Assembly: GCA_037833965.1 (NCBI GenBank)
Contig: AP031356.1
Location: 5,788,501 to 5,852,500 of the forward strand
DNA: 64,000 bases
Direction: 5' to 3'
Origin: Marchantia polymorpha subsp. ruderalis
Lineage: Eukaryota > Streptophyta > Marchantiopsida > Marchantiales > Marchantiaceae
Shown here: positions 5,240-56,900 of the stretch, piece after piece
How the letters are laid out: each line of letters begins with the position of its first letter
Position numbering within the stretch: the first letter of the stretch is position 1
Translations under genes and position numbers: made by a program
The notes under the pieces: generated by a model
Told to the model about the DNA's origin: nothing
The model's input: the letters and a program-made list of their open reading frames with translations, nothing else
Database searches by the model: none

Positions 5240-7905
5240 ATGACAGACAAATACCAAAATGGAGCATAATGGTACTGATCCGATCCCACGAGGACAGAAA
5301 CAACCACAAAAGTCACGATTTGTCATAGAATAGCATTTTGTTAAAGAGTTTCACTTCTTAGGCCAATGCCACTTCCAGAAGACACTACCCAGCTAGAGCC
5401 AAAGACCCGCAAAGTAGTGCATAACCACACTCATAGCCTAAAACTTTTCCAAACAACGCCTGTAGGAATCACTTGCAACTCCACACTTATATTTCACGGG
5501 GAAAACTTCCTAGCATTGCATACTTCTCAACTCACTGACCCGAATACTCAGACCCGAATTTGCTTAAATCCCAAGAAGCCTCGACTGCTCAGGACATTCG
5601 AGCCGAATACTCACAACCCCTGATGCGATAACTTCGACAAACATGAGCGCACTGTGCCGAAGACCTGGATCACACACCAGCGCACAGACACAGTGGATAC
5701 AGATTTACAATTAAGACAAGCCAATTGACAGAAAAGTCCGTCAAGGAAAGAGCCTTAGGCCTCTTTATTCACAATGACAACTCTGGGATATCAACTGCCT
5801 GAGGCGAATCGGTCTAAAGGGCTGTGCCGTCTGACGGTTAGGGCGTTGTCTGAACTACTCTCTACTCCTAATCTACGCAACACGTTTACAATCTCTACTT
5901 CTACATTCTGGCGCGCCTCATTCAATCCCTCTGAAAATGTATTAACTAACTCTACAATTTGTTTCTGTCCTGCGGATCCGCTAGTCTTCGCGCTCATCAG
6001 CCGTCGCTTGAGTAAATCTAACTTCATCCACTTCACCAAGTCCAATCCCCACATCGCCAACCCGTTCAGGCACTTCTCTAACCGCAATTTCAACTCGTCG
6101 ATTGACTCCTCCCGCAGCTGACGGTAGGCCTCCTCTGCCTTTTCCATTCTCCTTTGCGACTCTTCCGATCTCATTTCCGCCTTCCCTAACTGCTCTCGTA
6201 ACCGTCGACAGTCGGATTCAACCTTTAATTTACATTTGACCTCCGAAGACTTGGCCGACTCACCATCTGCCAATTTCTTGGCCCAATCCGCTAACTCCTC
6301 TTCATGCTTCTAGTTTCCCGCTGACAGACTTGCTGATAGATCCTCTGCACGTCGGAATTCCATTTCACACTTTGCCTCAATCTCCAAAATTTTGCTACGA
6401 AGATCTTCCTCCGCCGTCTTCGCCTCTGGGATTTTGCCCCAAAGTTCTTCGGCGATACGAACTTCTTCAGCTCTTCGGACTTCCAACTTAGCAAGTTCCT
6501 CGATATGCATCTTCTCTAGCTTCTCCGCTGTAGTGATCAACCGCTCCGATCTTTTGAATGCTGCATCGTAAGCTTCCCTAGATTTCTCCAATCTCGCCAT
6601 CAAATTCACTGTTACTTTCTGGGCATTCTCATTAGAGATAAGAAGTCCCCGACATGTCTCTTCCAGCTCTGCACATCGCCCGGATTCCTTCTCTAGATTC
6701 AGCTGCAGCACTTCACACTCAGTTTCGTTCTCCCGAAGCTGGGCTTCTTGCTCCCGTAATGTCGCCTTCACTGCCGCACACTTGTTTAACAAGGTTGCAG
6801 CTCGCTCTCGTGCCAATGTAGTCGCGGAATCCCACTCTCTCTTTACTCCAACTGCTATCTTGAGCTTTGTCATGTTCCTAATCATAGGTACATAGAATCC
6901 TGGCTCCTCCGATACAGCATACTTCCCTCTCTTCCCATCCAAATACTTCAACAATGGAACTACACTATACTGCAAGAATTCAGGAAATGTAATTTCCAAT
7001 GTCTTCACGTCTTCACCCGAAGCCTTCTTCCCTTCTTCGAGTCTCACCTCTTCCACCGGAGATGTCGGCAGTGTAATGCCCTCGGCTTCTACCACCGTCC
7101 CTCCTATTCGTGCGACAACCTGCTCCAGAATCTCCTCGCTCAAAGTGGACTTCTTCTCCAAGTCCTCGTTCATCTTCAGTTGTGGTGTCTCTCCGCCCCG
7201 CGCAGACCGTGTCTACTCCAAAGACAGAGAAATCAGACTTACCAACTCCGTACTCTCATTCAAAGGTTCTGCCGGTATGTTTGCTAGAATTTTGATTGAC
7301 ACCTCCGAAGGTACTCCTATCTCCACATGCTGCATTACCTCGCTAGCTGCGACTTTGGATGTGTTCACAATTGGTGTCACCGTCTTCTCCACGCTGCTGT
7401 CTAACACCTCAGCTGTCACCATCCTCCAATTAGCCCTCTTCTTTGATCTTGCACGTGCTCTGTGCAGCCTCGCTCCATCTACATCCATGTCCATCCTTCT
7501 TACCTCGTGGGCCAATTCTTCCTCGTCATCACTCACGACCTTTCTTCTCTTCACCAATCGTCTCTCCGGCTTCTCCCGTCTCTGAACCACGTTCACCTGA
7601 ACTGGTCCTTGAGCTGTCGTATGTGTTGGAATTGAGGGGGGTCGGTTCTCGTCTTCGGTCCCTTCACTGGACTCAGCTGTCAAGATTTCCCGCTCTCTCT
7701 GATTTCAGCTGTCAAGATTTCCCAAAAAAAAAGCTGCGCCAAAGACACGAAGATCCAAATATCTTCGGACATTGACGAATTCTTACTAATTCTATCATTT
7801 CTCCTAAGGAGCTGCTCCTTCTAACTCTAACAACTACTTTCTAGACAAATATCTTTTAGTTTTGTTGATTTTTAAAGAAAAACAAAAAAACTATGCACCA
7901 CATCC
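5240..7905 (-). pseudogene. Coiled-coil family, copy 2 (internal deletion, two in-frame TAGs)
   Basis: Coding remnants at 7,683-7,213, 7,173-6,310 and 6,273-5,791 lie in one frame and are separated only by TAG codons at 7,215-7,213 and 6,312-6,310. Reading through both gives about 630 residues. The order is an acidic or basic low-complexity N-terminus, a conserved LEITFPEFLQYSVVPLLKYL block (near 6,950-7,010), then about 300 residues of coiled coil and a WGLDLVKWMKLDLLKRRL block (near 6,000-6,060). The N-terminal domain seen in copies 1 and 4 is missing. The deletion lies between two copies of 'cagctgtcaagatttccc' (about 7,676 and 7,707), and the upstream sequence (7,740-7,905) matches that of copy 4 (39,150-39,310). 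The 3' flank is 5,240-5,790. It abuts copy 1 head to tail. Confidence 0.75.
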
Positions 7906-10860: not shown

Positions 10861-11246
10861 TTGCACTTGAGTAGTTCATTTTACTTTCTCATCTTCACCT
10901 TTACATCATAATCATTCTCTTCATTTTTTGACCTCAAAATCACGGCGCGGATTTTTCTCATATCCCAATCATGACAGGCTTGTACATGTGTTACTTCATA
11001 TTATGTGCCAACTGTAGTGTGTATTTGTTTCAAGACAAATGGACTTTATGTCATTTTGTTACAAAATCTCATTGGATGAATGTTGAATTTTTATTAAAGG
11101 TTTGACATTAGGAATTGCGTTGGTTGTTTCTGGCCAAGAGGAAGAGGTCGATAAGATGATTGAGCTGATGAGCAGAGACCAAGATACTATTTTACATATG
11201 CAGGTATGTACGCGCTCGCGCTAGCGTATAGAGGCACTGCAAACAA
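10861..11246 (+). pseudogene. RPN2 fragment: intron 10 end and exon 11
   Basis: Matches 55,440-55,863 of the real gene: late intron 10, then exon 11 ('ggaattgcgttggttgt', 'ggccaagaggaagagg', 'atgtacgcgctcgc'). The exon starts with a 1-nt loss relative to the intact gene and carries several substitutions, so the frame is broken. It stops at the left target-site duplication of the MULE. The next bases of exon 11 (cagtgca) resume at 20,287 beyond the MULE. Confidence 0.85.
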
Positions 11247-11808
11247 GGACGGGTTTAGCTGCACAAACTTATACATAGCCCCTATATAGGGCCTTCATAG
11301 ACCCAGGCAGGTGTCATCCTACAGTGACCCGTGACGGAAGTTCTTCTTTTTGCTGCGACTTTCCTCTTTTGGACCAAAGATGGAAGAATGTGCGGGCAGG
11401 CTAACCGGGCAGGTTTTTCATTGGCACTCAATTTTCCGATGGAGCGTCAAAGTGATTTCCGGCAGACGGATCTAACGATGGACTATAAGAACACTTTGCG
11501 GGGAGGGTCGGCGGACCATACATTCCGGCAACCATGTAGATGCACTCAACCGGATGAAATTCCAACAACCATGTAGATGCACTCAACCGGATGAAATTCC
11601 AACAACCATGTAGAAGAGGGGCCGTCACTTTAGAGGCTGCAACATTGTATCTATTGCGTTGCAATGATCTACGCCGTAACAATGATTGCGGTCGTGTCTT
11701 GGAACGTTGCGGGAACTAAAAACTAAAACTGAATCGCAAGAGGGATAGCTCATATGAAATCCCTAGTGTTCAAACTGTAATTTTTGTAATCAAACGGTGA
11801 TAACATAT
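11247..11808 (+). repeat. MULE left terminal inverted repeat
   Basis: Inverted match to 19,852-20,277. Shared blocks include 'gcggggagggtcggcgga' and 'caacaaccatgtaga'. Relative to the right arm it has a tandem duplication of about 41 bp near 11,530-11,610 and a different segment at about 11,285-11,500. At 11,815-11,853 it is followed by an inverted copy of the terminal motif ('gtttgtgcaactaagcgagt'). Confidence 0.8.
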
Positions 11809-13207
11809 TGTATAGTACGGCCGTTTGTAAAAGTTTGTGCAACTAAGCGAGTCGTGTGAAGAATACACAGTAAATAGTTTTATCTCGAACCCTTTTCTAC
11901 CTGTATCTGTCAGATACCTGTATCTCAACACTAAAAGTTCAGAACAATTTGATTTGGAACTCTTCGATGTGCATTGAAACTTACAGTGTGAGACCTCTGA
12001 TAGGCACATCCAATCTCGAAGTAGATTCACTTAAAGTTTTGTGTGACTATCAGAATGTTGTCTTTGTCACCTATGCCGACGTCTAGTGCACCTATAAGCT
12101 CTCAGATGGCTGTGTGACTTGCATAATTGGTAACATAGTCACATATTAGAGCATATAATCGTTTAACATATTTACAGCTGCAGTTTCGAGATAGTTTGAG
12201 TTTTTGCTGGATGTAGATAGCTCAGGACCTGACTGATTATAATCGTCCATCTTGCATAGAAATGAGCATTTTGCAATGAGCAAAGTCAGATAACAGAAGC
12301 AAATATATGACATTTTGTGAGATGAATTATGAATCAATGTGACTGAAGGTCCAGACCAATGACGGCTTCAATAACTGGCAACTTCTGTCGGATGAGACAA
12401 GAATTGTCTTTGGAACTCGCCACCCTTTTGGCTATTACATACCTCTGTCGAATCAGTTCTCACTACTCTCCATACTTACTGTCCAAGGTCCAACTTAATT
12501 CACTTAAGCATGCAGTAAGTTCACAGAACACACCTATTACCAGAAATCTTACAGCAGATGCTTCTGCTGACTTTATTTATGTCGTCAGATATACACAAGA
12601 TTCTGTGATGTAGGGTTTAGTGTGATCCTACATTGAGTTCAAGAATAAATCTCCAAATTCAGACAAAAGTACTGTATACGTCTTCCTGTTTTTGTCATGA
12701 AAGTTCTATAGGAATATAAACACACAGAAGTAGGCGAGGGATATTGTTTGAACAAGAAATGACTTTTTATGGAGAAGGTAGTCCCGATTCCTTTTCTTTG
12801 TATCTCTTATCATTGAGCTAGATTTGTTGGGTATGTTTCTCTCCCTTTCATGTGACTCTATATTTTTGCTTTCGACCTGTGTGCCACCATGTAAATTGAC
12901 TATCTCCTAACTTACAGCTTTCATGAACCGAACTGGTACTAAAAACCACGCTGACATCTCACAATACAAAAAGATTCAAAATTAGCCTCCAAGGCTTCAA
13001 ATTCATAAGTCTGAGACTGTAGAAAAATCCGAGTGTACAGAAAAGTTAATTTGTAGTGCACGATGTAGCTCTATTCCAATTTTGTTCCGATACAAAAACT
13101 CTAAAGCTGCGCACTGTCAACTGAAAGCACAGTCAAAATTCCAGAAAGTGATGAGTGCGTCCTAAAGCCACTGCATACATGATTTGCAAAACTTTCGCTA
13201 CAGCTCA

Positions 13208-13231
13208 TCATCCTCAGTCGACTGAGGATGA
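13208..13231. repeat. Perfect 24-bp palindrome
   Basis: Two perfect 12-nt arms (tcatcctcagtc and its complement) meet without a spacer around a GTCGAC centre, inside the MULE downstream of its second gene. Confidence 0.9.
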
Positions 13232-13264
13232 CTTCGTGGAATATAAACAGCATAATTTAGAGGT

Positions 13265-13350
13265 GTTCTCTCTCATTTGCAATTGCAAGGGTTGCATGAG
13301 GACTTGTCATCGCACTTGCATCCTTCGTTGGCACCATAAAAGCTGTATCA
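13265..13350 (-). other. Possible terminal exon with a cysteine cluster
   Basis: After a plausible acceptor (tgatacag on the minus strand, about 13,350) the minus strand reads YGANEGCKCDDKSSCNPCNC followed closely by TGA. The spacing of six cysteines resembles CXC or metal-binding clusters seen in some plant nuclear and transposon proteins. No connected upstream exon was established, so it may be chance or a relic of a third MULE-borne exon set. Confidence 0.25.
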
Positions 13351-13742
13351 GAAAAAGCAAAATTATAATCAGATACTGATCTACCGTCCCAGAATCCAAG
13401 AACGGTGATTTTATGAATACGTTAAGTATCCAGTTCAGACTAACATCAGCAGATTTTGAGTTCCAGAATGAAGCAACTACATTACCATGGTTACTGAAGC
13501 AAAAGCATAGCGATCTGAAACACCGATTCAAAATACATATAATTATCCGCTTCCTCTTCGAAAGTAGGACAAGTACACCAACTACAAGGAAGAAATGAGG
13601 AGAAAAAACCCCATACCACTTCTTTCGAGCCACATTGGAGCCTATCTAGGTAGAGTGGGGAAAAATATAGGTATGAAAATTGCCATTTAAGACTTTTGTA
13701 AGTGAAACTAACCAGTATCGAAGTCCACGTACGACTTTCAAC

Positions 13743-15547
13743 TCATCGCCATATGTTAGCACGTCGTGTCCTCTCACCAGGTGGCTTTCTCTTGACGCCT
13801 ACATCCATGTTACCATCTGAAGAACGAGTTCTCCTATCTGTAATAACAGCAACCCAATCGCAGATATTATCATTTTGATACAACATATTTCAGTTAAAAT
13901 TAAAGCTCAAAGAAAATGCTTGGGAACGATCTTACTTGCACGTTTCCCGCCGCGATCACGTTCTGGTCCTTTGCTAAGATCCTTAACAAGAGACATCGCT
14001 GTTGCAAACAGTTCAACTTTATTCCACCACTTGTTGGCAACAACAGCCCATTTTACCGACCCTTTGTTTTCAAGTGTGCTGACACGGATCTTATATGAGG
14101 CGTCTGTCGTATTAAGTTCGTCTGCCGTATACTTCGCTCCCCACTACAAGAGAAGATTTTGTTTTTTTGCATCCATTCTCTTGATTTCAACCTTCGCTCC
14201 CCACTTTTCAACTTCCTGTGATATATGTACAGACATAAAAAATGGCTATATGGGCTCTACGGAACCATACATCTCTGATTCATCAAGAGCTGACTTTGAA
14301 ATCTCACCCTGAAAAAAATAACAAGCACAATACTCTTAGATCATATCCAAACTGCAATATCTGTAATTGTAACATAAACATTACAAATTGGAAAATCTTT
14401 ACGTCAGGAGTAAGAATGTCTGACCTTTGTCCGAGCTGTCTCTTCATCTTCGATGACACCCAGGTCTGCCATGCGCTTCATTCGACCTCTCAGAACGGTT
14501 TCTCCAAGATCAAGTTTAGCTTTCCTGCCCGTTGGACTATAGAGATAATCCAGAAATTTCAAGATTATTCGTTCATTACATTCCAAAGATGGATTCCAGT
14601 TGGATTGTTCAATCCAACTGTACTTACCACAGAATACTATCCATTCTTTTGCCTCAGCTTTCAAATCGCTGCAACTGTCATCTGCACTCAAGATCGCCAC
14701 AAGATCTTCCATGGCTTCAACTTCGTCAATGTCAATCTCTGACTTCTTCATACCTCGCCGTTGACTGCTCTTTTTGTTTTTGGCATGCTCTCTCTTCACC
14801 CACTCTTGAATAGAATCTACGAACTGTACCTTTCTCTTACAGGGATCAAGTAGTTCGTCAAGATGATCAAAGACAAAATTTGTAAACTCTGGAATTCTCA
14901 ACATGTTCCAACCTGGAAGAAAATTCTTGCATACGAGTCTCATGGCCCTCAAAATCACCGGAGGTTCCTCCAATTCTCCTATATCCTCTCCCGTCATTAG
15001 AGAATATATCTTTTGGTAAAAATACCCCTTAATAATCTAGACACACAACTCAAACTGTCAATTCTGCAACATATATACGGTTATTGCAATCTGAACATAA
15101 TAAATCTCAAATTATATGTGGAAGTCTACTTGAATTCAATTTGAAATAAACAATGCAAATAATAAAAAAAAAACTTGCCACTGAAGAATTGCATACCTCG
15201 CCTCGAAAGAAATCCAACTTATCTTGCTTGTGCTTGATCCAACGTTGACAGATATTACCAAAATGCTTGTCACAAGAGTCAATCAACTCTTTCTTGTCAG
15301 CCTTCCTGGAAACTCCAGTCGTCTTTGGTCCAAGTGGAAGCTTCTGGGTAATTTGGAGATGACAGTCCACATGGTCTTTACTCCAATGCTTTTCGATATA
15401 ATTTTTTTGGGAAAATGTTCCTGGGAAAGAACAACCTTGCAGTATGCATTTACAGTTATGCCTACCGCCCTTGGTGACGTGTGGCACCTTTGCATAGTGC
15501 CTATCCAATATCGCCTCTTCCAGTTCGCCCCCAAATACTCCCGCCAT
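13743..15547 (-). CDS. Unidentified zinc-finger-like protein carried in the MULE (five exons, 421 aa)
   Basis: My model joins exons 15,547-15,197, 15,009-14,425, 14,308-14,261, 14,143-13,936 and 13,816-13,743. Every junction is GT-AG and the total, 1,266 nt, is one open frame ending TGA. Exon 1 holds a C-x4-C-x15-H-x4-H pattern (CSFPGTF...KHWSKDH, about residues 34-60), like a degenerate C2H2 or BED finger. Exon 2 has a basic cluster (KNKKSSQRRGMKKSE) and a tryptophan-containing block (FCGKYSWIEQSNWNPSLE). The tail is basic (VKRKPPGERTRRANIWR), suggesting nuclear location. I do not recognise the family. It lies about 2.5 kb downstream of the transposase on the same strand, so it is either a second transposon protein or a captured host gene. 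The weakest point is the gtagag donor after exon 3. Confidence 0.6.
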
Positions 15548-15559
15548 GACCGCTCACTA

Positions 15560-18095
15560 CACGGCTGGCTCGCAACAAGAGTCTTCTGTCAAGGTTCAAT
15601 AAACCAATACGAATAAACATTGTATTCAGTCAACAAATTCCTGAAGATATTGAATGAAGTTCCACCCAAACTGTGCTCTTGGTGTTGTGCCGTAACTACT
15701 GTATAAAAATCTACATGTTCCTACTAAGGGCGGCCTTCCAATTATCTGATGTCAAAGAACATAGAGCAAATCACAAGAGATACCAATTGTATGTACCTTG
15801 CTACAAAAGATAATGTAAACTGTCACATTAGAATCCATTGTGCTGTACAGCAGCACAGGCAAAACTAACTGTGATGTCTAGTCTATGAATTGTCTGTAGT
15901 CCCAGCTTTTGAGAGGAAGTTGATCAATGCGTACCTGCAGCTTAGTCTCGTATAACTTTTTAACATTGGCGATGAGCTCCTAAGAAGGAGTGCTACCCTC
16001 AGTAAGACTGTGAAGAACCTGTGCAGAATTCATGAAGTTTTATAAGTCCTCCTATAGATGATCCCAGGATGATAACTCATCTGTAAACAAAGGAATGTCG
16101 TGATAGATCAAGAAACATATTGTACGCTGGAAACCAACATCCTAAGTCTAAGCAGTAGCGTGGCCGGCGGAAAGAAAGTCCTAAATGGGCAACAAGCATG
16201 CACGTTATATCATAAGAATGAAATCAAAACTCTACTTCACAATTCTCTATGTACAACTGTTGACTAACGGACAGTAAAACAGTCATCAAAGAGAAACCAC
16301 TACATTTAGTTAATGTGCAAAAACACAAGTTACTCTAATTCTAAAATGGTGTAATTAGCATCAATTTTAGAAGTAACTAGAATAATGATATGGGAAGTCT
16401 GGACAAAAGTATATGAACAGAAAGAAAACGTTTAGAACTCCGCCACACCTGTTTGACAGTTTTAGATACCTGACCGTACACAGAAAAGAGTTGGCGTAGT
16501 AGTGAGTGTTTCTGCAAAAAGATATGTTAAGAATTCGTCAAGATGGAGCTTGAGGATGATGAAGCTCAGCTAAAGATATGCATAAAACTCTATTGAACTT
16601 GCAGCAACCAACCTTTCTAGCATAAGCACACCCCATCCCAACTAGGAGTTAATGTTGATGTTCGTTACATAGATGCTCCGGAGGGCCAATGTCCTGGTGA
16701 GCTCATAGTTGTAAATGTTCGTTACAGAATTGCTCCGGAGGGCCAGGTCCCGGTTAGCTCTCTGATCGCTCGTACAATGAATGAGTGAGTGTTAGATACA
16801 CTACGGTGGTCAACACATGATTGACCGTAGCTTTGGACTTCTTTCATGGTGATGATTGAAGATTTACTGCGATGTTCAACTAGTTCGATTTTGGAGAAGT
16901 CTCCCGTCTCTCTGACGATCTAAGAAAAGTGCGCGGCAGCTGCAGTGGTCCACGATTGAGATACGCAGCATGCCATCCTAAAGCAACAAAAGCAAGATTT
17001 CAATCTTGAACGGCAAATTAATACGCACATTCGAGTATGAATCGTTCAGTGGAAAGTGAAGGAAAATTATTTCTGTAGACGCTGTACTGCGTCTAAAATG
17101 TGGGATACAAGTGGTGACACTTCCACTGCGGTTTGCATATTGCAGGAAATCTGGCCATATATTTCATTCGAATTGCAAATTAGTGACATATTATACAACT
17201 GCAACAGTCTGTAAACTATGTACAAGAGCAAAGGATTGGGCTTCGGAAGTCAGTGGAGAACTCCAATGACCCACGGACCTGGTTGATCTTGCAATCAAAG
17301 CAGACCTCGATCTGCTTTAGTGGGAATACGAGATTTGGTTTTCCGTGAGGCTCAAGCTCTTACGACCTTACGTGAATCCAAGTTTTCCGCTGTACTTCTG
17401 AATCCTTTGTCTGTGTAAATATAAATATATATAAGCAGTTTAGTTTTATAGTGTTTGGTCTCATATCTGTACAGACGAGCTCAAAGACTTCTTCGGGGGA
17501 CTCTAAAGTTGTACATTAGAGAAGAGCTCAGAGAACGTAGGCAAGGAAGACTTCACATCTCTCGATACAGGACAGTTGGCCTATAACTCTATAACTCTAT
17601 CCTACACTATGCAACCAATGCTCCCACTACTTTTGCACACTTTCGCAGTGTGGCACATATTACAACTGCAATGCTTTTTCTCTTGTTCCTGTGCTTCCTA
17701 GGTCTGTCTAGTTTTCTGAATTTATTTGTTACAGATGAACCGCCTCGCGTGTTCCATTCCACTCGAATCAATAGCTTTCCAGTCTAGCAGATAAAGTTGG
17801 CCATTTTCGTCGACTTGTCATATTTAAAGGACCAAAATGAGCACAGTTGTTAATACACTATTGAGTGAAAGAGTGACCAAAATACACTTTTTTTTATATA
17901 TAAATGTTTAATATTTACTGGATAATTTAAAAATTCAACAAGCAGTGACATTTCTTAGTAGAATAAAACACATTACAGGTAAGTATTTTTTTTCATCAAT
18001 AAATCAAAGATCATCAGACTACTAGCTTTCACTATCTTGCTCTGCCATTCCACATCATTTTAATAAGTTTCATCAAACTCATAGGCACACTAATA
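15560..18095. other. MULE interior without a recognised gene
   Basis: The region between the two MULE genes. It contains an imperfect direct duplication of about 45 bp near 16,658 and 16,717 (sharing 'tgctccggagggcca'). The missing C-terminal part of the transposase (second and third acidic catalytic residues, SWIM-type zinc finger) is expected here, but I could not find it in any frame. Confidence 0.4.
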
Positions 18096-19664
18096 TCATA
18101 GGATATAATGTTGGGCCATCTTCTTCGTTGCAGATTGTAAATCCACCAGATCTTCTGTTTCTTCTCTTTCGAGGAATCCAAAAACATTAGGATGTCCGTG
18201 TTCATATTCGTCAAACACCATCAGGGTGTACAGTGGATACTGCATTGCAAAAAATGAAATAAATGCATTGCATCAGTTTGCTGCTAGCAATCGTCTACAA
18301 AGTATTCATCTTCATTGATACTAAGCTAAACCTGATACAAATGAATGATTCGCTATTTTTATGTCTTGATAATTTAGACGTGATCAAGGTATATAAAACA
18401 ACATATACATCACACATTGAGACGTTCAATAATGTCTTACAGGACTGGTTAAAGCTCCAAACCGTCTTTTTTTCAAATATCTTGCAGAGATTGCAAATAG
18501 TAAGGTAGAATATACATAATCATGGAAGCCTGATGATAAAAACATCAAAATGGACAAGTAGAATATTACCTTATACTTCTGTGTGCCATGCGTTCCATCT
18601 ATAGCAACACAACCTCCATTTCCATGTTTTAGCAACCAATCTAGGAGCAAGGATCTTGTAACAGCAAGCCTCAATGGTTTAAATGTATCACTTTTTGGTG
18701 CCTGATACAAAACAACTTGAGATGAATTCGCTTTCATCCATAATTCTGTGCTAATTCTATCATTAGCATGCCTTCTCCAAGTTTCTTTGTCCAATTCCAA
18801 TTTGATATTATACACATCGGTAGATGTGATATAATGATCTCTAATAGGGGTCCCTTGCACATAGCCTAAGCGCTGATGATTTTAGAACAGTGCTTTTGCA
18901 GCACGCATGAGAATTTGTGGAGGAGTTAAACCTCTTCTTAACTCGCATTCAACCCACTCCCTGGCATAAGAACGTAGAAAATATTAGACAACGTGCTTGC
19001 TTAGTGTCAAAGTTTTACAAACTGTAATAACAACAAACTTATTGTAGATATTACAAATATGACGGGAGATTGACTGTGAACGATAAACAAATACATTGAA
19101 AATGTAACAAATATGCCGTTACCTGCATTCAGAGGATAAATTGCGCGCCATTTGAGATGGCAAGCCAACACTATCCAAACACGCTGTGCCATAACAAGCT
19201 ACACCTACAGCATTTACGTGTCTTCTATGCTTGTATATCAATTTTGTGATTCCTAGTGGAATGTGATCATTAGACAGCAGTTTGATGGCACTAAACCTGC
19301 ATTGACAGCCCTTGTGATGCAAATCATGATCTAGTCTATCCCTGCTGCCAGTACCAACTTTTGCCTTTGTTGATGGATCTTGAATAAAATTTGAGGAAAG
19401 CATACTCTTCTTGCCCCTTTCTGGAGTACCATACTTGCAATAATATATTGCATACGATTCCCAATTGTGCCTAGTACCTCCACCCTTGTATGAGCAACGT
19501 GTCACAAATTCTGTCTTCGCATCACTATGACAAGATCCCTCTCCCGAAACAAAATCGTTAAGCCTCGAGCTTTTGATGTAGGCCGTCCCATTTGACCAAT
19601 TCAACATTAACGAATTGAAAGGGCCATCATAAGGTGGGTCCTGCACAATCCATCCTGCCTCCAT
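18096..19664 (-). pseudogene. MULE transposase, N-terminal and first catalytic part (broken)
   Basis: Exons 19,664-19,123, 18,960-18,570 and 18,239-18,096 join with GT-AG borders and matching phases. The first encodes a Cys/His-rich DNA-binding-like part (HHKGCQCRF). The second encodes EWVECELRRGLTPPQI, then a TAA at 18,884-18,882, then WLLKHGNGGCVAIDGTHGTQ with the presumed first catalytic Asp. The third continues YPLYTLMVFDEYEHGHP, the block that follows this Asp in MULE transposases. Reading ends at a TGA (18,098-18,096) and no second or third catalytic acid is visible. The start at 19,664 is chosen because the frame upstream is not transposase-like; transcription probably begins in the right terminal repeat. 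Confidence 0.82.
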
Positions 19665-19851
19665 GCTGTCACCACATCTGCAAAAGCACCTGAAATGACA
19701 AGAAAAGTACAAGCACGAGCTCTGGCACGAGCTCCTCAAAGCACTGACACTGGCACCCAAAAGCGACGTCGAAACGACAAGCTGGAGAATATTGATGTGA
19801 TTCTATTTTCAAAAATCCTAATCTTTGCCGCTTAAAATTTCGTCGCCTCAA

Positions 19852-20277
19852 TTTGTTATCACCGTTTGATTACAATTTGAACATTAGGGATTCCATCTGA
19901 GCCATACCTCTTGCAGTTTAGTTTTAGTTTTTTGTTCCCGCAACGTTTCACGACACGACTGCGATCATTGTTACGGCGTAGATCATTGCAACGCACTAGA
20001 TACAACGTTGCGGCCTCTACAGTGACGACCTCTCTTCTACATGGTTGTTGGAATTTCATCCGGTTGATGGACTCTACATGGTTGCCGGAATGTAGGGTCC
20101 GCCGACCCTCCCCGCAAAGCGCCCCGCCTCCCCGTTCCCAAAACTAAGATAAAATCCGGCTGATCCGGGGCAGCCCGAAGGGAGGATGAAGAAAGAAAGA
20201 AAGAGGAGAAAGAAACTGGGATCCCTGACACCTGGCAGTACGGCTGTTTGTAAAAGTTTGTGCAACTAAGCGAGTCG
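19852..20277 (-). repeat. MULE right terminal inverted repeat
   Basis: Inverted counterpart of 11,247-11,808. It is more compact, contains a purine-rich tract (about 20,185-20,215), and lies immediately upstream of the transposase, so it likely holds that gene's promoter. Confidence 0.82.
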
Positions 20278-20286
20278 TGCAAACAA

Positions 20287-31480: not shown

Positions 31481-33810
31481 AGATAGATTGATGGATGCTC
31501 GCCACCTCGAACTCAGCCAACGGTCCGGATGGATGTATGGCCGCCACCTCGAACGTAGCTAACGGTCCGGATGGATGGATGGTCGCCACCTCAAACTCAG
31601 CGGACAGTCCGGATGGATGGATGAGCGCCAGCTCAAACTCAGCGGACGGTCGGGATGGATGAATAGTCGCCACCTCGAACTCAGCGGACGGTCCAGATGG
31701 ATGCATGAGCGCCACCTCAAACGCAGCGGACGGTCCGGATGGATGTATGAGCGCCACCTCAGACTCAGCGGACGGTCCGGATGGATGGATGGTCGCCAGC
31801 TCGAACTCAGCGGACGGTCCAGATGGATGCATGAGCGCCACGTCAAACGCAGCGGACGGTCCGGATGGATGGATGAGCGCCACCTCAAACTGAGCGGACG
31901 GTCCGGATGGATGGATGACCGCCAGCTCGAACGCAGCGGACGGTCCGGTAGATGGATGACTGCCAGCTCGAACGTAGCGGACGGTCCGGATGGATGGATG
32001 CGCGCCACCTCAGACTCAGCGGACGGTCCGGATGGATGAATAGTCGCCACCTCGAACTCAGCGGACGGTCCAGATGGATGCATGAGCGCCACCTCAAACG
32101 CAGCGGACGGTCCGGATGGATGCATGAGCGCCACCTCAAACTCAGCGGACGGTCCGGATGGATGGATGAGCGCCAGCTCAAATTCAGCGGACGGTCGGGA
32201 TGGATGAATAGTCGCCACCTCGAACTTAGCGGACGGTCCAGATGGATGTATGAGCGCCACCTCAAACGCAGCGGACGGTCCGGATGGATGCATGAGCACC
32301 ACCTCAGACTCAGCGGACGGTCCGGATGGATGGATGGTCGCCAGCTCGAACGCAGCGGACGGTCCGGATGGATGGATGAGCGCCACCTCAAACTCAGCGG
32401 ACGGTCTGGATGGATGGTCGCCAGCTCGAACGCAGCGGACGGTCCGGATGGATGGATGAGCGCCACCTCAGACACAGCAGACGGTCCGGATGGATGGTCG
32501 CCAGCTCGAACGCAGCGGACGGTCCGGATGGATGGATGAGCGCCTCCTCAGACTCAGCGGACGGTCGGATGGATGGATGATCGCCAGCTCGAACGCAGCG
32601 GACGGTCCGGATGGACGGATGGTCGCCACCTCAAACTGAGAGGACGGTCCAGATGGATGGTCGCCACCTCAAACTCAGAAGACGGTCCAGATGGATGGTC
32701 GCCAGCTCGAACGCAGCGGATGGTCGGATGGATGGATGATCGCCAGCTCGAACGCAGCGGACGGTCCGGATGGACGGATGGTCGCCACCTCAAACTCAGA
32801 GGACGGTCCAGATGGATGGTCGCCACCTCAAACTCAGAGGACGGTCCAGATGGATGGTCGCCAGCTCGAACGGAGCGGACGGTCCGGATGGATGGATGGT
32901 CGCCAGCTCGAACGCAGCGGACGGTCCGGATGGATGGATGGTCGCCAGCTCGAACGCAGCGGACGGTCCGGATGGATGGATGGTCGCCAGCTCGAACGTA
33001 GCGGACGGTCCGGATGGACGGATGGTCGCCACCTCAAACTCAGAGGACGGTCCAGATGGATGGTCGCCAGCTCGAACGGAGCGGACGGTCCGGATGGATG
33101 GATGGTCGCCAGCTCGAACGCAGCGGACGGTCCGGATGGATGGATGGTCGCCAGCTCGAACGTAGCGGACGGTCCGGATGGACGGATGGTCGCCACCTCA
33201 AACTCAGAGGACGGTCCAGATGGATGGTCGCCAACTCGAACGAAGCGGACGGTCCGGATGGATGGATGGTCGCCAGCTCGAACGAAGCGGACGGTCCGGA
33301 TGGATGGATTAGCGCCACCTCAAACTCAGCGGACGGTCCGGATGGATGGATGGTCGCCAGCTCGAACGCCGCGGACGGTCCAGATGGATGGATTAGCGCC
33401 ACCTCAAACTCAGCGGACGGTCCGGATGGATGGATGGTCGCCAGCTCGAACGCAGCAGACGGTCCAGATGGATGGATGAGCGCCACCTCAGACCCAGCGG
33501 ACGGTCCGGATGGTTGGATGGTCGCCACCTCCAACTCAGAGGACGGTCCAGATGGTTGGATGAGCGCCACCTGAGACTCAGCGGACGGTCCGGATGGATG
33601 GATGGTCCCCACCTCAAACTGAGAGGACGGTCCAGACGGTTAGGTGAGCGCCACCTCAAACTCAGCGGACGGTCCGGATGGATGGATGAGCGCCACCTCA
33701 GACTCAGCGGACGGTCCGGATGGATGGTCGCCAGCTCGAACGCAGCGGACGGTCCGGATGGATGGATGGTTGCCAGATTGAACGCAGCGAACGGTCCGGA
33801 TGTTACGGAC
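31480..33810. repeat. GC-rich minisatellite, 42-bp unit, roughly 50 copies
   Basis: Core unit: gcggacggtccggatgg, then one to three GATG steps, then cgccanctcnaacnca. The usual length is 42 bp, with shorter forms near 38 bp that lack one GATG. Two main variants alternate: cgccagctcgaacgca and cgccacctcaaactca. Groups of units are themselves repeated (for example 32,573-32,700 against 32,710-32,840, and parts of 32,900-33,060 against 33,090-33,240). Because 42 is a multiple of three, both strands show long artefactual frames. The TCCGGA core is palindromic and each unit is rich in CpG. Confidence 0.95.
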
Positions 33811-50979: not shown

Positions 50980-53900
50980 ATGACGGTGGTGAGCACAGCG
51001 AGCGGGCTGCTGGCCATGCTCCGAGAGCAGCATCCTGTATTGAAGCTGCATGCCCTCAACAATCTCAATGCCTTCGTGGATCATTTCTGGCCCGAAGTCT
51101 CGACAAACATATCTGCCATGTATGTGGATCCGCTTAGTGCTTATTGTGTCATTGAACCTTTTCAGCTTCTTGGTTTGCAGGGCTCTTTTCTTCTCACCTT
51201 CTGTACGAGTAATACGTGTCACGGTTTATGTTTTTGAGGAAGTTTGTCATAACAATTGTATTATTGGGCCTTTGCGAGGTCGGCAGTGAAAGTCTGTACG
51301 AGGATGAGACTTTCGATCAAAGACAATTGGCCGCATTGGTAGCATCGAAGGTCAGTGATCATGCTGGGAGGAATAACTTATTATGCTTGATTATTTAGCT
51401 GCAATCAATTTGTTGATGATAACATGAACTTTAGGTCAAATGGAGTGGATGCCTTGCTAGGGTTTTTGGTTGCTTTGGGTTCATAGACGGCACTAATTGG
51501 GCTGGGTTTTGTGCAAGTGCAGGTTTTTTATTACCTTGGGGAGTTGAATGACTCTCTCATTTATGCGTTAGGGGCGGGACCGTTGTTTGATGTCACTGAG
51601 GAGTCGGAATATGTGCAGACCTTGGTTGGTGAGTTTCTGTTTTGCCGGTGCATCCTACATTTTATATACTTGTAGAATACGTTTCGGTATGCTTCAAAAC
51701 TTGAATGGTCTTCGCTATTGTCAACTGGCACACACAGAAATTAAAATGGTCTCACTTGTTGCAAGAAAAAGCGAACGAAGTTGAATCTTCGCGAGGATGT
51801 ATCGGCTGTTACATATGTAGTACTGTTTTGCAAGGAATGGAAGAAGTCCATGCGTGTCACTTAGCAAAGCACGGAGTAATCGTCGTGGTGGATTACGTTG
51901 AATCGAACTGATGTCACCAAAGTCAGCGTGAAAATTTACCCTGTGCCCACGAGCCTGGGAAGAAAACATGGAACCGAGTTTGATGTTTCTTCTTAATAAT
52001 CTTTCCTTTGATCTAGAGTATTTTAAGGAATGAAGCAAAGTATGGGTATTTCATGAAACAGAGTCCGGTTGTTCTTCAGAGGGTTTGACTAGAAATTTTG
52101 GGTTAGGAGGTAGTACCATTCCTATTCAACCCTCCTTGACAGTCAATAGTCAAGAGATCACCGTCCTCTAAGGAGGAGAATGACCTGACTACTCTTTACG
52201 TTGAAGATTATTCAACGTAAAAACGATTAGAGTTTGAACAGACATTTCGGGCCGATGATAATTTTCGTCAGTACAAGAGGTGATGTGCCTAGGGTTGTTT
52301 TACTTTCTTCGCTCATTTGTGTGTAATATATCTGAATGATGTTGTTGTCTTGTTTCGTGGGAGGAAAGCCAAGTGCATCGACGAATACATCTCTTTGAGC
52401 GTGAAAGCTTCCGAGACCATTGAAGAGTCTCCACCATTAGATCCAAGGCTCTTGGCCATTGTGGAAAAAATGCTTGACAAGTAAGTTCTACTCAAGTGTA
52501 CCTGCATAATGCTTCCTTGTTGTGCAATTCTACCGCTGCTTCTTTCACTCGTGTTTCAGCCGTGAAAGTACGAGCATAATATTCAGAAGTTTCTTGCTTG
52601 TTTTGACTACTCTAGATGCATGGCGGATGGAAAGTTTCAGCAGGCAGTGGGGATAGCTCTTGAATGTCGAAGGCTTGATAAGCTGGAAGAGGCCATCACG
52701 AAGAGTGAAAATATTCCGTCTTTGTTGGCTTACACTCTACGTCTTTCACAAACCTTTGTCACGAAGCGGGAGTTTCGTCACGCGGTAATCTCTCCGTAGT
52801 TTGTATTGGCAAAATGCTCATTTGTTACCACCGAACACTTGTGGCACCTATAAGTATGATTTGGTTTGGTATGAATCTTCCCACTTGCTTTAACACCTAT
52901 CAAGACTAATCAATCTAGTATTTCACCTTTGCGGTGCTTGCAGGTACTACGCCTTCTCGTCAGGATCTATCAAAGTCAGCCAAGTCCTGATTATTTGAGT
53001 ATCTGCCAGTGCCTCATGTTCTTGGACGATCCAAGCACTGTTGCCACAACTCTCGATGATCTTATTAAAGGAGACAAAGTAAGTTTCCAAATTGTCTACT
53101 GGCTGTGAGGTTGGTTGGGGAATCTGTATGGTTAGTCTAGGATATTATCAAGAAGCATTCCCTGACATTTTGCCATGGTCTTTCCAGGTCGATGCTCTTT
53201 CTGCCTACCAAGTGGCTTTCGATCTTTTTGAAAACGAGTATCAACTGTTTCTTCTAAATGTAAGAGATCGTCTCCCCGAAGTCAGAGCTTCGAGTTCTCT
53301 TGATGTTGCCGGTAGTGGTGCTCCTGCTGCCGTCCCCGTAGCGATGCCCGCACAACCAGTTACTGCTGATGCGGACAATGGGGCCACTGCAGACAGCGGT
53401 CCGACTGCCATGGATACCTCTGATGGAGAGCCTTCCGAAAGGACTCCTCTGTTAGCTCGTGAACCTTCACCAGCCCCACAAGTGCAACCAGTTCATGTTG
53501 TTCAACCCGTTAGAGAATCTCCAGAGCCGACTGCAGCAGCGGAAGATGCAGCAGAGTCGTCGGAAATGTCAACGTATGCTCAAAGACTCACGAGGTTGAA
53601 GGGAATTTTGTCTGGTGAAACACCTATCAATTTGACACTTCAGTTTCTGTACAGCAACAATAGGTGAGCAGCGATACTTGTGTTTTGGCCTAGTTATTGG
53701 ATTTTTTTGGGGTATAGATTGTGCTTTTTGTCTGCTGTGCGTTAGGTAGGCATTGAACACGTAGATGGGGAAGTCAACGAAGAACCTTCGATCTCTTTGA
53801 TCTGATTATGTGGAATGTAGGTCTGGTTGGCTCGGGTTTCTAACCTCCTCTCGAAATGTGTAGATCGGACCTTTTAATACTTAAAACTATAAAACAGACA

Positions 53901-56900
53901 GTTGAGCTCAGAAACAGTGTTTGCCATAGTGCTACTATTTATTCGAATGCGCTCATGCACGCCGGAACGACAGTGGATACTTTTCTGCGTGATAATCTTG
54001 TGAGTTCTCACACTCAATCTATATTAAATCGTTTAGTCATTTGATAAATGCCTGTAAGTTACTCCTTGTTTACTGGCCTTTATTAGCGACATTCTCGACT
54101 CCGAGCGTTTCATTGGTTTTGTCTGGGTACGTCTCATGCAAAATCATGCATGTACATGAAGTGGGTTGCGTGAGGCTTCCTCACTTCTCTGGCGAGGGAC
54201 CCAATATGTCTTGGAATAGTACGTTGTCTCAGAAAGCATACCGTTGTGTCCTGGGTACGTCTCATGCAAAATAATGCATGTACATGAAGTGGGTTGCGTG
54301 AGGTTTCCTCACTTCTCTGGCGAGGGACCCAATATGTCTTGGAATAGTACGTTGTCTCAGAAAGCATACCGTTGTGTCCTAGCCCCTGTCCTACACAAAT
54401 CACACAAAACGCCAGCAGAGGGAATGGAACCCTCGACCTTGCAATTAGGAATTGCATGCTGTATCCACTGACCTATGCCAGCTTTTTTGGCTCAAAGTGG
54501 ATCAGATTTCAAATTTCAATATTCACGAAGTTGGAGGTCTCGAAAATTGTGTAATTCTCTGAAATATTATAGGCGAACTTGGAGATCTGCATGTACGTTA
54601 AGTGTGTTGCTTGAGGCCTCCTCACTTCACTTTATTCTTCGGTGTCATTCATCTCATAGTATTAATAAATATCGCCCACTTGATATTCAGGATTGGCTTA
54701 GCCGAGCTACAAACTGGGCTAAGTTCAGTGCGACAGCAGGTCTTGGTGTCATACATCGTGGTCACCTCCAACAAGGCCGCTCCTTGATGGCTCCTTATCT
54801 GCCTCAAAACGGAACAGGTGGTGCGAGTCCTTATTCAGAGGGAGGGGCTCTTTATGCACTTGGTCTTATCCATGCCAACCATGGAGAGGGCATCAAGCAG
54901 TTCTTGCTCGAAAGTTTGAAAAACACCAATAACGAGGTTGGTAATTTCTCACGTCCCTCAAAAACCGCTGTCATATCTTTTCGACTATATTTAGGCTACA
55001 AAAAGAGGAACATCTATGCTCCTATTTTACATTGTGGCGTGTGTCAACTGAGGACTAAGTTGTTGGTGTACGCAGGTTATTCAACACGGTGCATGTCTGG
55101 GTTTGGGTTTGGCAGCTCTTGGTACGGCCGACGAGGAGATTTACGAGGATGTCAAGAATGTTCTCTATACCGACAGTGCAGTTGCTGGAGAGGCTGCAGG
55201 AATAGCTATGGGACTACTCATGGTTGGAACTGCTAGTGAGAAAGCTGGAGAGATGCTTGCATATGCTCACGAAACCCAGCATGAAAAGATCATCAGGTCT
55301 GATTTGTGGTCACAGCGGTGTTGTCTTGTTAAGTTGTAGTTACGAGGTCTTATTCGAGGTATGATGTAGATGGGTTAGTCGACGGTTTCTTGATTATTTC
55401 TCGAAAGAACAGAGTTATCTCTCATTTCCGGAGAAGAAATTGCACTTGAGATAAACGTTGATTCTGAAGTAGTCCATTTTCCTTTCCCATCTTCACCTTT
55501 CCCTTGTTTTCATGGTAATAAGCCGCGATTTTTGGACCTCGCAGTCATGGCGCGGGTTTTCTGGTCTCCAGACTATGAGAGGCTTGTACTTGTGAGCACA
55601 GATGTGTGTTACCTCATATTATTTGCCAACTTTAGTGTGTATTAGTTTCAAGATTAATGAACTTTATGTCATTTTGTCACAAAATCTCATGAGTTGGATG
55701 TTGATTTTCTATCAGGGGTTTGGCATTAGGAATTGCGTTGGTTGTTTACGGCCAAGAGGAAGAGGCCGATACGTTGATTGAGCAGATGACCAGAGACCAA
55801 GACCCTATTTTACGTTATGGGGGTATGTACGCGCTCGCCCTAGCGTACAGAGGCACTGCCAACAACAGTGCAATTCGTCGCTTGCTGCACTTTGCCGTCT
55901 CCGATGTTAGCGATGACGTTCGGAGGACTGCCGTTTTGGCTTTGGGTTTTGTGCTTTGTTCTGAACCCGAACAGGTTAGTCTCTGCACCCAAATTGTGGC
56001 GGATCTCTTTGAAGTGGGTGCTAGTGGAGACTCTAAATTGAAGAATAAGGTCATGCCGTTTCAAATTGTGTGTAGTAGAGGTTGATGGCCTTAAATGCGA
56101 GGAAACGTTTATTATATTGCAGAATGCATGAGATATACAGTTTGCTGTTTGTATGTTCTCCTCGAATGAACGACCATGATGAATTTATCATTCCTTTGCA
56201 GACGCCTCGGATCGTATCATTGCTGTCGGAGTCTTACAATGCACACGTGAGATATGGCGCAGCTATGGCTGTGGGAATCTCATGCGCTGGGACTGCTTCT
56301 AGTGAAGCTATTTCCCTGTTGGAGCCTTTGACATCGGACGCAGTAGACTTTGTGCGTCAGGGAGCCCTGATTGCCATGGCCATGGTGTTGATGCAGACAA
56401 CAGAAGCACGAGATCCTCATGTTGGCGCCTTCAGGTATGTACTTGTTGTCTGCTCCTGTGTTCACTTTTGCAGTCGGATATTTAAATAGGTAGTGACGTT
56501 GCGACGTTGTGTTAGCATGTCAGCATGCGTTGCAAGTATTTTTGTTTGACTGAACATACCTTCTCCTGTCACACAGGCGGCAACTGGAGAAAATCATATT
56601 GGATAAACATGAGGATACAATGAGCAAGATGGGTGCAATTTTGGCACAAGGAATTTTAGATGCGGGTGGTCGTAATGTCACCATCATGCTTCAGTCAAGA
56701 TCTGGTCACGATCGCATGACTGCTGTTGTAGGGATGGCCGTATTTAGCCAGTTCTGGTATTGGTATCCCCTTCTATATTTCATAAGCTTGTCTTTCGCGC
56801 CGACAGCTTTTATTGGTCTCAATCATGAATTGAGAATGCCCAGATTCGACTTCATTTCAGATATTAGGCCTTCAGTGTTTGGCTATCCACCTTCTATAGC

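Follow-up and report, generated by a model that had tools for sequence, protein, structure and literature searches.

The window, by which we mean the whole 64,000-nucleotide stretch of Marchantia polymorpha subsp. ruderalis DNA that was analysed, contains on its minus strand a transposase-truncated MULE (11247..20277) that carries the remains of a transposase gene (18102..19802) followed by a second gene, referred to here as gene 2. The limits of the element were set from its termini, CGACTCGCTTAG.../...CTAAACCCGTCC, and by alignment with other copies. It is bordered by a perfect 9-bp target-site duplication (TSD), TTGTTTGCA on the minus strand, found at 20278..20286 on the 5′ side and at 11238..11246 on the 3′ side, a length within the 8-11 bp range of MULEs. 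The 5′ inverted-repeat arm (19869..20119) is the partner of a 3′ arm (11494..11781) made up of two overlapping pairs, I1 and I2, which are 88% and 94% complementary to 19869-20119, so the element has inverted arms (223 nt and 84 nt) of the kind expected of MULE terminal inverted repeats (TIRs), which are often long. These arms and the perfect TSD bear out the proposal of an earlier sequence-only reading that the gene is carried by a MULE. Among the seven copies of the family with both ends visible, a perfect 9-bp TSD was present in five (the window copy, L009, L012, L014 and L043), the other two being L013 and L017. The 5′ terminal sequence (CGACTCGCTTAG...) at window 20237-20286 also reappears at 11814-11863, about 0.57 kb inside the 3′ end of copies of type A, the group to which the window copy belongs (e.g., L009:8908), where it looks like a nested second end.

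The adjoining transposase had been described as broken, and in the window copy it lacks its 3′ exons. Comparison by tblastn located T1 (19802-19122), T2 (18983-18468) and a fragment of T3 (18269-18102), all on the minus strand; since only residues 4-59 of the 238-residue T3 frame are left and T4-T6 are absent, the transposase ends inside the catalytic MULE domain, as it does in type A generally. The MULE transposase domain PF10551 had no match in the window (150 scored of 181 candidates), and was found in the related copy L043 at 51.0 bits versus a cut-off of 27.6; in L043 the frame after this segment has a C-x-C...C-x-H motif that, read by eye, is SWIM-like.

Other parts of the window hold a 42-bp GC-rich minisatellite of ~56 copies that is open in several frames on both strands (31486-33802), exons of the host gene for the 26S proteasome subunit RPN2 (53083-55236; PF21505 and PF01851), and two minus-strand frames ~3.6 kb apart (2056-2676 and 5791-6309) that appear related by eye, the first of which has a sub-cut-off Pfam match only.

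Exon structure, selection and protein features of gene 2

By aligning the window copy with 33 others (the 20 best-matching ones at 9.6 kb, plus 13 chosen, mostly diverged, copies at ~2 kb), it was found that gene 2 comprises five exons and 461 codons, from an ATG at 15547 to a stop that ends at 13743 on the minus strand, with splicing inferred from this alignment and not from RNA. Exon 1 (15197..15547, 117 codons), which encodes a C2H2-like finger, and exon 2 (14425..15036, 204 codons) are defined by the copy alignment, codon bias and selection. Exon 3 (14261..14308, 16 codons) has retained splice sites and an undetectable coding signal, exon 4 (13936..14215) has a weaker coding signal, and exon 5 (13743..13837), which encodes a basic tail, has no detectable coding signal in its 95 nt. 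The GT-AG ends of all four introns are retained in the 26 less-diverged copies, barring four exceptions (changes at donor 1 in L016, donor 3 in L022 and acceptor 1 in L041, and a deletion in L011).

The sequence-only reading had placed an intact five-exon gene of 421 residues here. A multi-exon, minus-strand gene from 15547 to 13743 is indeed present, but it has 461 codons and, in the window copy, it is not open throughout: exons 1-3 lack stops, and exon 4 contains an in-frame TAG (14144..14146), which is codon 361 of 461 in the frame set by the other copies. This stop is private to the window copy in the 34-copy alignment; the 33 others, one of them (L035) poorly aligned, have GAG, AAG, GAA, GAC, AAA or AAC instead. 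A 421-residue model must step over this TAG, and our guess is that it did so by using the TAG as a splice acceptor, because exon 1 (351 nt), exon 2 (612 nt), a shortened exon 4 starting at 14143 (208 nt) and exon 5 (95 nt) would give 1,266 nt, or 421 codons plus a stop. With a transposase that stops within its catalytic domain and a gene 2 that is interrupted in exon 4, the window copy is a derivative. Gene 2 is fully open in five of the 34 copies (L018, L019, L020, L026 and L028), with L019 encoding 455 codons through an in-frame deletion.

The pattern of changes among copies shows how this gene has been maintained. Across 25 young copies, the exon 1-2 changes that are private to one copy number 38 synonymous to 113 non-synonymous or nonsense, and those diagnostic of subfamilies number 24 to 16 (Fisher p = 5.5e-5), a contrast which indicates that the gene was selected in the source lineage and decays after insertion. 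Thus, 70% of the protein (exons 1-2) has been under purifying selection in the lineage that produces copies, and individual copies decay. In the same test on exons 3-5 (9:41 versus 3:13, p = 1) purifying selection was undetected, so the last 30% of the protein could be fast-evolving or wrongly modelled. Divergence from eight old copies (L029-L034, L036 and L037; L035 was dropped), calculated from pooled counts of events that are not independent, follows codon position in exon 1 (0.126, 0.138 and 0.278 for the three positions) and exon 2 (0.184, 0.144 and 0.283), shows a weak bias in exon 4 (0.217, 0.191 and 0.277), and has no such bias in exon 3 (0.219, 0.203 and 0.213) or exon 5 (0.262, 0.275 and 0.216). 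Values of dN/dS across homologous MULE copies, which the earlier reading had proposed as a check, agree in part: in the called frame of exons 1-2 they were 0.08-0.53 in 12 of 12 type-A-consensus pairs, but exon 2 of the old, decayed copies L029 and L033 gave 0.76, no lower than in wrong frames.

The undetectable purifying selection in exons 3-5, together with a TGA just past exon 2 (14406-14404) that is found in all 26 less-diverged copies and in seven of eight old ones (L035 being the exception), is what would be expected if gene 2 ended there, at ~327 residues, and exons 3-5 were an artefact of chance splice sites. We consider this shorter form improbable, given that GT-AG ends are retained at introns 2-4 in nearly all of the 26 less-diverged copies, that the exon-4 frame lacks stops over 92 codons in four subfamily consensuses and has a codon-position bias, and that both the 18-nt gap in L019 and a 9-nt one seen in several old copies preserve the frame.

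The encoded protein contains the finger C34-x4-C39-x14-H54-x4-H59 (15371..15448, minus strand), whose four residues are the same in all 14 rows of alignment A2; a C2H2-like finger had been noted before, with a final spacing of x15 that is corrected here to x14, and the basic C-terminal tail noted with it is confirmed. Beside the finger, a W32C change occurs in the window row only. Neither Pfam at cut-off, for the 461-residue protein, nor the PDB up to E = 10, by sequence and by profile, provided a match; viral and prokaryote collections gave 2, 13 and 177 pattern matches, of which none was confirmed. Within these collections, the earlier remark that its family was not recognised holds. The gene-2 exon proteins also had no match below E = 0.1 to the transposase pieces, and AlphaFold predictions for exons 1 and 2 were unusable (mean pLDDT 46.5 and 47.1). 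A DNA-binding role like that described for mutB may be predicted from the invariant finger motif.

Copies of gene 2 and their pairing with the transposase

Searches of the genome (241 Mb in nine contigs) identified 81 stretches that match exon 2 and 62 that match exon 1, with some loci counted more than once. Contig C7, on which the window lies, has plant-type TTTAGGG repeats at its end. Long copies have at least three arrangements, which have gene 2 in common and differ in the spacer and 3′ part, and there are mosaics such as L027. In its full arrangement the element consists of an inverted repeat, the MULE transposase, a spacer, gene 2 in the same direction and an inverted repeat, flanked by 9-bp TSDs; one element, read as L020 with L045, combines an open gene 2 with six transposase frames that lack stops.

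The two genes are paired in most close copies. Among the tabulated transposase copies with at least 90% identity, 44 of 57 are followed on the same strand by gene 2 at a distance of up to 25 kb, as are two of the 49 with less than 90% identity. From the other side, a transposase lies upstream of gene 2 in 43 of 49 gene-2 copies at 90% identity or more, in 4 of 9 at 80-90% and in 0 of 13 below 80%; two transposase/gene-2 pairs have other arrangements. A cluster of old gene-2 copies with ~64-73% identity occurs at G000:C5:30.47-30.71 Mb, and the 7 kb examined upstream of one member (L046) contained no transposase of this MULE family.

The small number of diverged transposase copies with gene 2 (2/49) hinted that this gene was a recent acquisition, a proposal that was not supported: L048, the one diverged copy read, and the closer L043 lack gene 2 and look like internal-deletion derivatives, so the absence of gene 2 is not primitive there. 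In L043, which has a perfect TSD, an internal deletion joins a late transposase exon to the last gene-2 codons (...SWLEKVRTPGERTRRANIWR; L043:3470-3826).

Damaged forms of gene 2 have also spread. The type-A copies L009, L011 and L012 have a common exon-3 stop at codon 331 (counted from 0), and L013 has a stop in exon 3 too, indicating that copies with a broken gene 2 multiplied and, therefore, that gene 2 is not needed in cis.

The sequence-only reading had offered three explanations for this gene: a second transposition protein, a captured host gene or a domesticated transposon gene under selection. The fixed order and direction of gene 2 relative to the transposase, and the existence of an element with both genes open, make the first of these the best fit, with the role in transposition itself assigned by analogy, and lead us to propose that gene 2 is an accessory second gene of a two-gene MULE family (probability about 0.8). 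Domestication, in which the window gene would be selected for a host function, could account for the stop-free exons 1-3 of the window copy; it is contradicted by the high number of decaying copies, by a TAG that is found in 0 of 33 other copies and a W32C change confined to the window row among 14, and by the location of this gene within an insertion flanked by a perfect TSD, one copy among dozens. A domesticated gene would be intact, immobile and low in copy number, whereas this one has a private stop and many mobile relatives, and we regard domestication as extremely improbable.

Sequence blocks shared by introns of both genes

A related 44-bp block, in the same orientation as the genes, was found in seven of the nine inferred introns, namely transposase introns 1, 2, 3 and 5 and gene-2 introns 1, 2 and, in a weaker form, 4. 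Reading frames served to infer the introns, and a 41-bp match between two of them led to the initial selection of blocks by eye. Within the window, matrix searches place them on the minus strand at 19014..19057 (transposase intron 1, where conservation is added evidence), 18454..18497 (transposase intron 2), 15047..15090 (gene-2 intron 1), 14344..14387 (gene-2 intron 2) and 13830..13873 (gene-2 intron 4, where the weaker block overruns the acceptor). Held-out blocks score 22-41, and the highest scores among 109,137 other positions of the window are 11-17. A matrix built from the four transposase introns ranks gene-2 introns 1, 2 and 4 as the top three sites in the gene-2 half (26.8, 22.4 and 18.5; next 6.9), with a maximum of 14.7 in the rest of the window, and with one built from two gene-2 introns the four transposase introns come out on top (scores from 35.3 down to 17.6, followed by 8.1), with a maximum of 13.6 elsewhere in the window. 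A degenerate block pattern has 287 genome matches at up to one mismatch, compared with 15 for a control, and among the matches listed (100 of the 287, all exact) every one has a family locus no more than 3 kb away.

The block is unevenly conserved. In transposase intron 1 no neighbouring segment is more conserved than the block in any of the seven old copies, with one tie, although two of these copies, L049 and L054, had been picked up through the pattern; transposase intron 2 has no clear excess, and in gene-2 introns extra conservation was seen in 7 of 16 comparisons, including 0 of 8 for intron 2. The proposal that the block is under extra constraint everywhere was thus not supported, and nor were an RNA hairpin (seven blocks were folded, with z from -2.84 to +1.35 and no common structure) and a splice branch-point signal, because the distance from block to acceptor ranges from overlapping to ~200 nt. 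It is possible that the blocks reflect a common origin of the introns or that they are shared binding sites.

Since gene-2 introns 1, 2 and 4 carry the kind of block found in transposase introns, gene 2 seems to have long belonged to the element. The same observation argues against the view that the element captured gene 2 from the host and carries it along as a passenger, in the manner of Pack-MULEs, as does purifying selection in the amplifying lineage. Such an origin could be entertained because MULEs frequently capture host genes, and because spliceosomal introns interrupt gene 2, for which the libraries searched contained no known relative among transposons. A Pack-MULE has an identifiable host donor gene, and none was found at the sensitivity used in the source genome, where donors were sought: exon-2 and exon-1 queries to E = 0.001 and a diverged exon-2 query to E = 1 identified no intact host homologue, the last of these giving one 27% match at E = 0.11 (C2:9865826). 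The capture proposed in the sequence-only reading is therefore considered very unlikely.

The blocks also bear on what an accessory gene 2 might do, since its product could be an anti-silencing or expression regulator, a VANC-like role, acting on sites in the element's own non-coding DNA. VANC anti-silencing proteins carry a DUF1985 domain, whereas the 461-residue protein has no Pfam family at cut-off. In favour of a regulator are the C2H2-like finger, the presence of the block in most introns of both genes and close to family loci in the matches listed, and the description of VANC21 sites in introns and upstream regions of their own element (PMC5735166). Against it, in the five segments compared, all from spacers or 3′ parts, no 7-10-mer rose above the highest value of 30 shuffles, so arrays of short VANC-like motifs are unsupported in the spacers and 3′ parts; tandem repeats in the element amount to seven rows, of which the strongest, a 37-bp unit repeated 2.5 times, lies in the 3′ inverted arm; and conservation of the block is uneven, as described above. 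Taken together, a regulatory role is possible but unlikely. Less likely still, and doubtful at present, is the specific proposal that the finger protein recognises the partly palindromic 44-bp block, placed once in most introns of both genes, and in this way governs how the whole element is expressed, silenced or spliced.

Proposed role and comparison with known two-gene MULEs

Returning to the accessory-gene reading, gene-2 protein would be made by copies in which both genes are open, would bind DNA through its finger and basic tail, as the motif and analogy suggest, and would act in trans as a transposition helper or a regulator, in a role like that of maize MURB or yeast mutB. A helper in transposition is a tentative assignment made by analogy, at somewhat less than an even chance, and the weight that is not taken by a helper or a regulator goes to other roles useful to the element.

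Few MULEs are known to have a second gene of the kind of mudrB, mutB or VANB, and most of these genes lack an assigned function; no description of gene 2 appeared among the open-licence papers listed on Marchantia, MULE accessory genes or transposase intron motifs. Material with which such functions can be tested is provided by the present plant family, which has many copies, a two-gene form that is open, common intron blocks and a second gene that has been under selection and encodes an unclassified protein family. If the blocks are sites for the gene-2 protein, the element would show a form of transposon self-regulation that is new.

Compared by description, MuDR of maize is likewise a MULE with a 9-bp TSD and a second gene (mudrB, encoding MURB), but mudrA and mudrB are convergent, whereas here both genes have the same direction (43/49 close copies). 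Accessory MULE genes described in the sources consulted include mudrB, mutB, vanB, vanC and a C2H2 ORF in Spectre (PMC6446971; PMC2725143; PMC5735166; PMC5014426). The function of mudrB is given there as undetermined, yet the gene is apparently required for activity or integration (PMC2725143; PMC6446971), and it is described as seemingly restricted to Zea (PMC2725143).

The second protein of Mutyl, from Yarrowia lipolytica, has 459 residues and, according to its description, no homology to described proteins (PMC2725143). Its length is close to the 461 codons of gene 2, a match by description that may be due to chance, and Mutyl differs in having a yeast host and 22-bp TIRs, whereas the window element is in a plant. 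In the text of one account mutB is given a role in DNA binding and is oriented like the transposase, whereas its table gives mutB as antisense and lists C2H2 for the sub-group with the ORF unspecified (PMC6446971). The Spectre MULEs of arthropods have two ORFs, a C2H2 finger and a transposase, in the text of that account and one ORF in its table (PMC6446971); by description they are alike in combining a C2H2 finger with a transposase, and differ in their 8-bp TSD, 74-bp TIRs and animal hosts.

The VANDAL/Hiun elements of Arabidopsis are also MULEs with extra genes (VANB and VANC), and VANC sites lie in introns of their own genes. The VANC21 motif is described as 9 bp long, present at high density and often in tandem repeats (PMC5735166); the dense arrays that it forms in VANDAL/Hiun have no counterpart in the spacers and 3′ parts of the Marchantia element, the introns of which hold single 44-bp blocks. 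If gene-2 protein does recognise these blocks, the family would have arrived independently at an equivalent of the VANC system, with its sites in introns.
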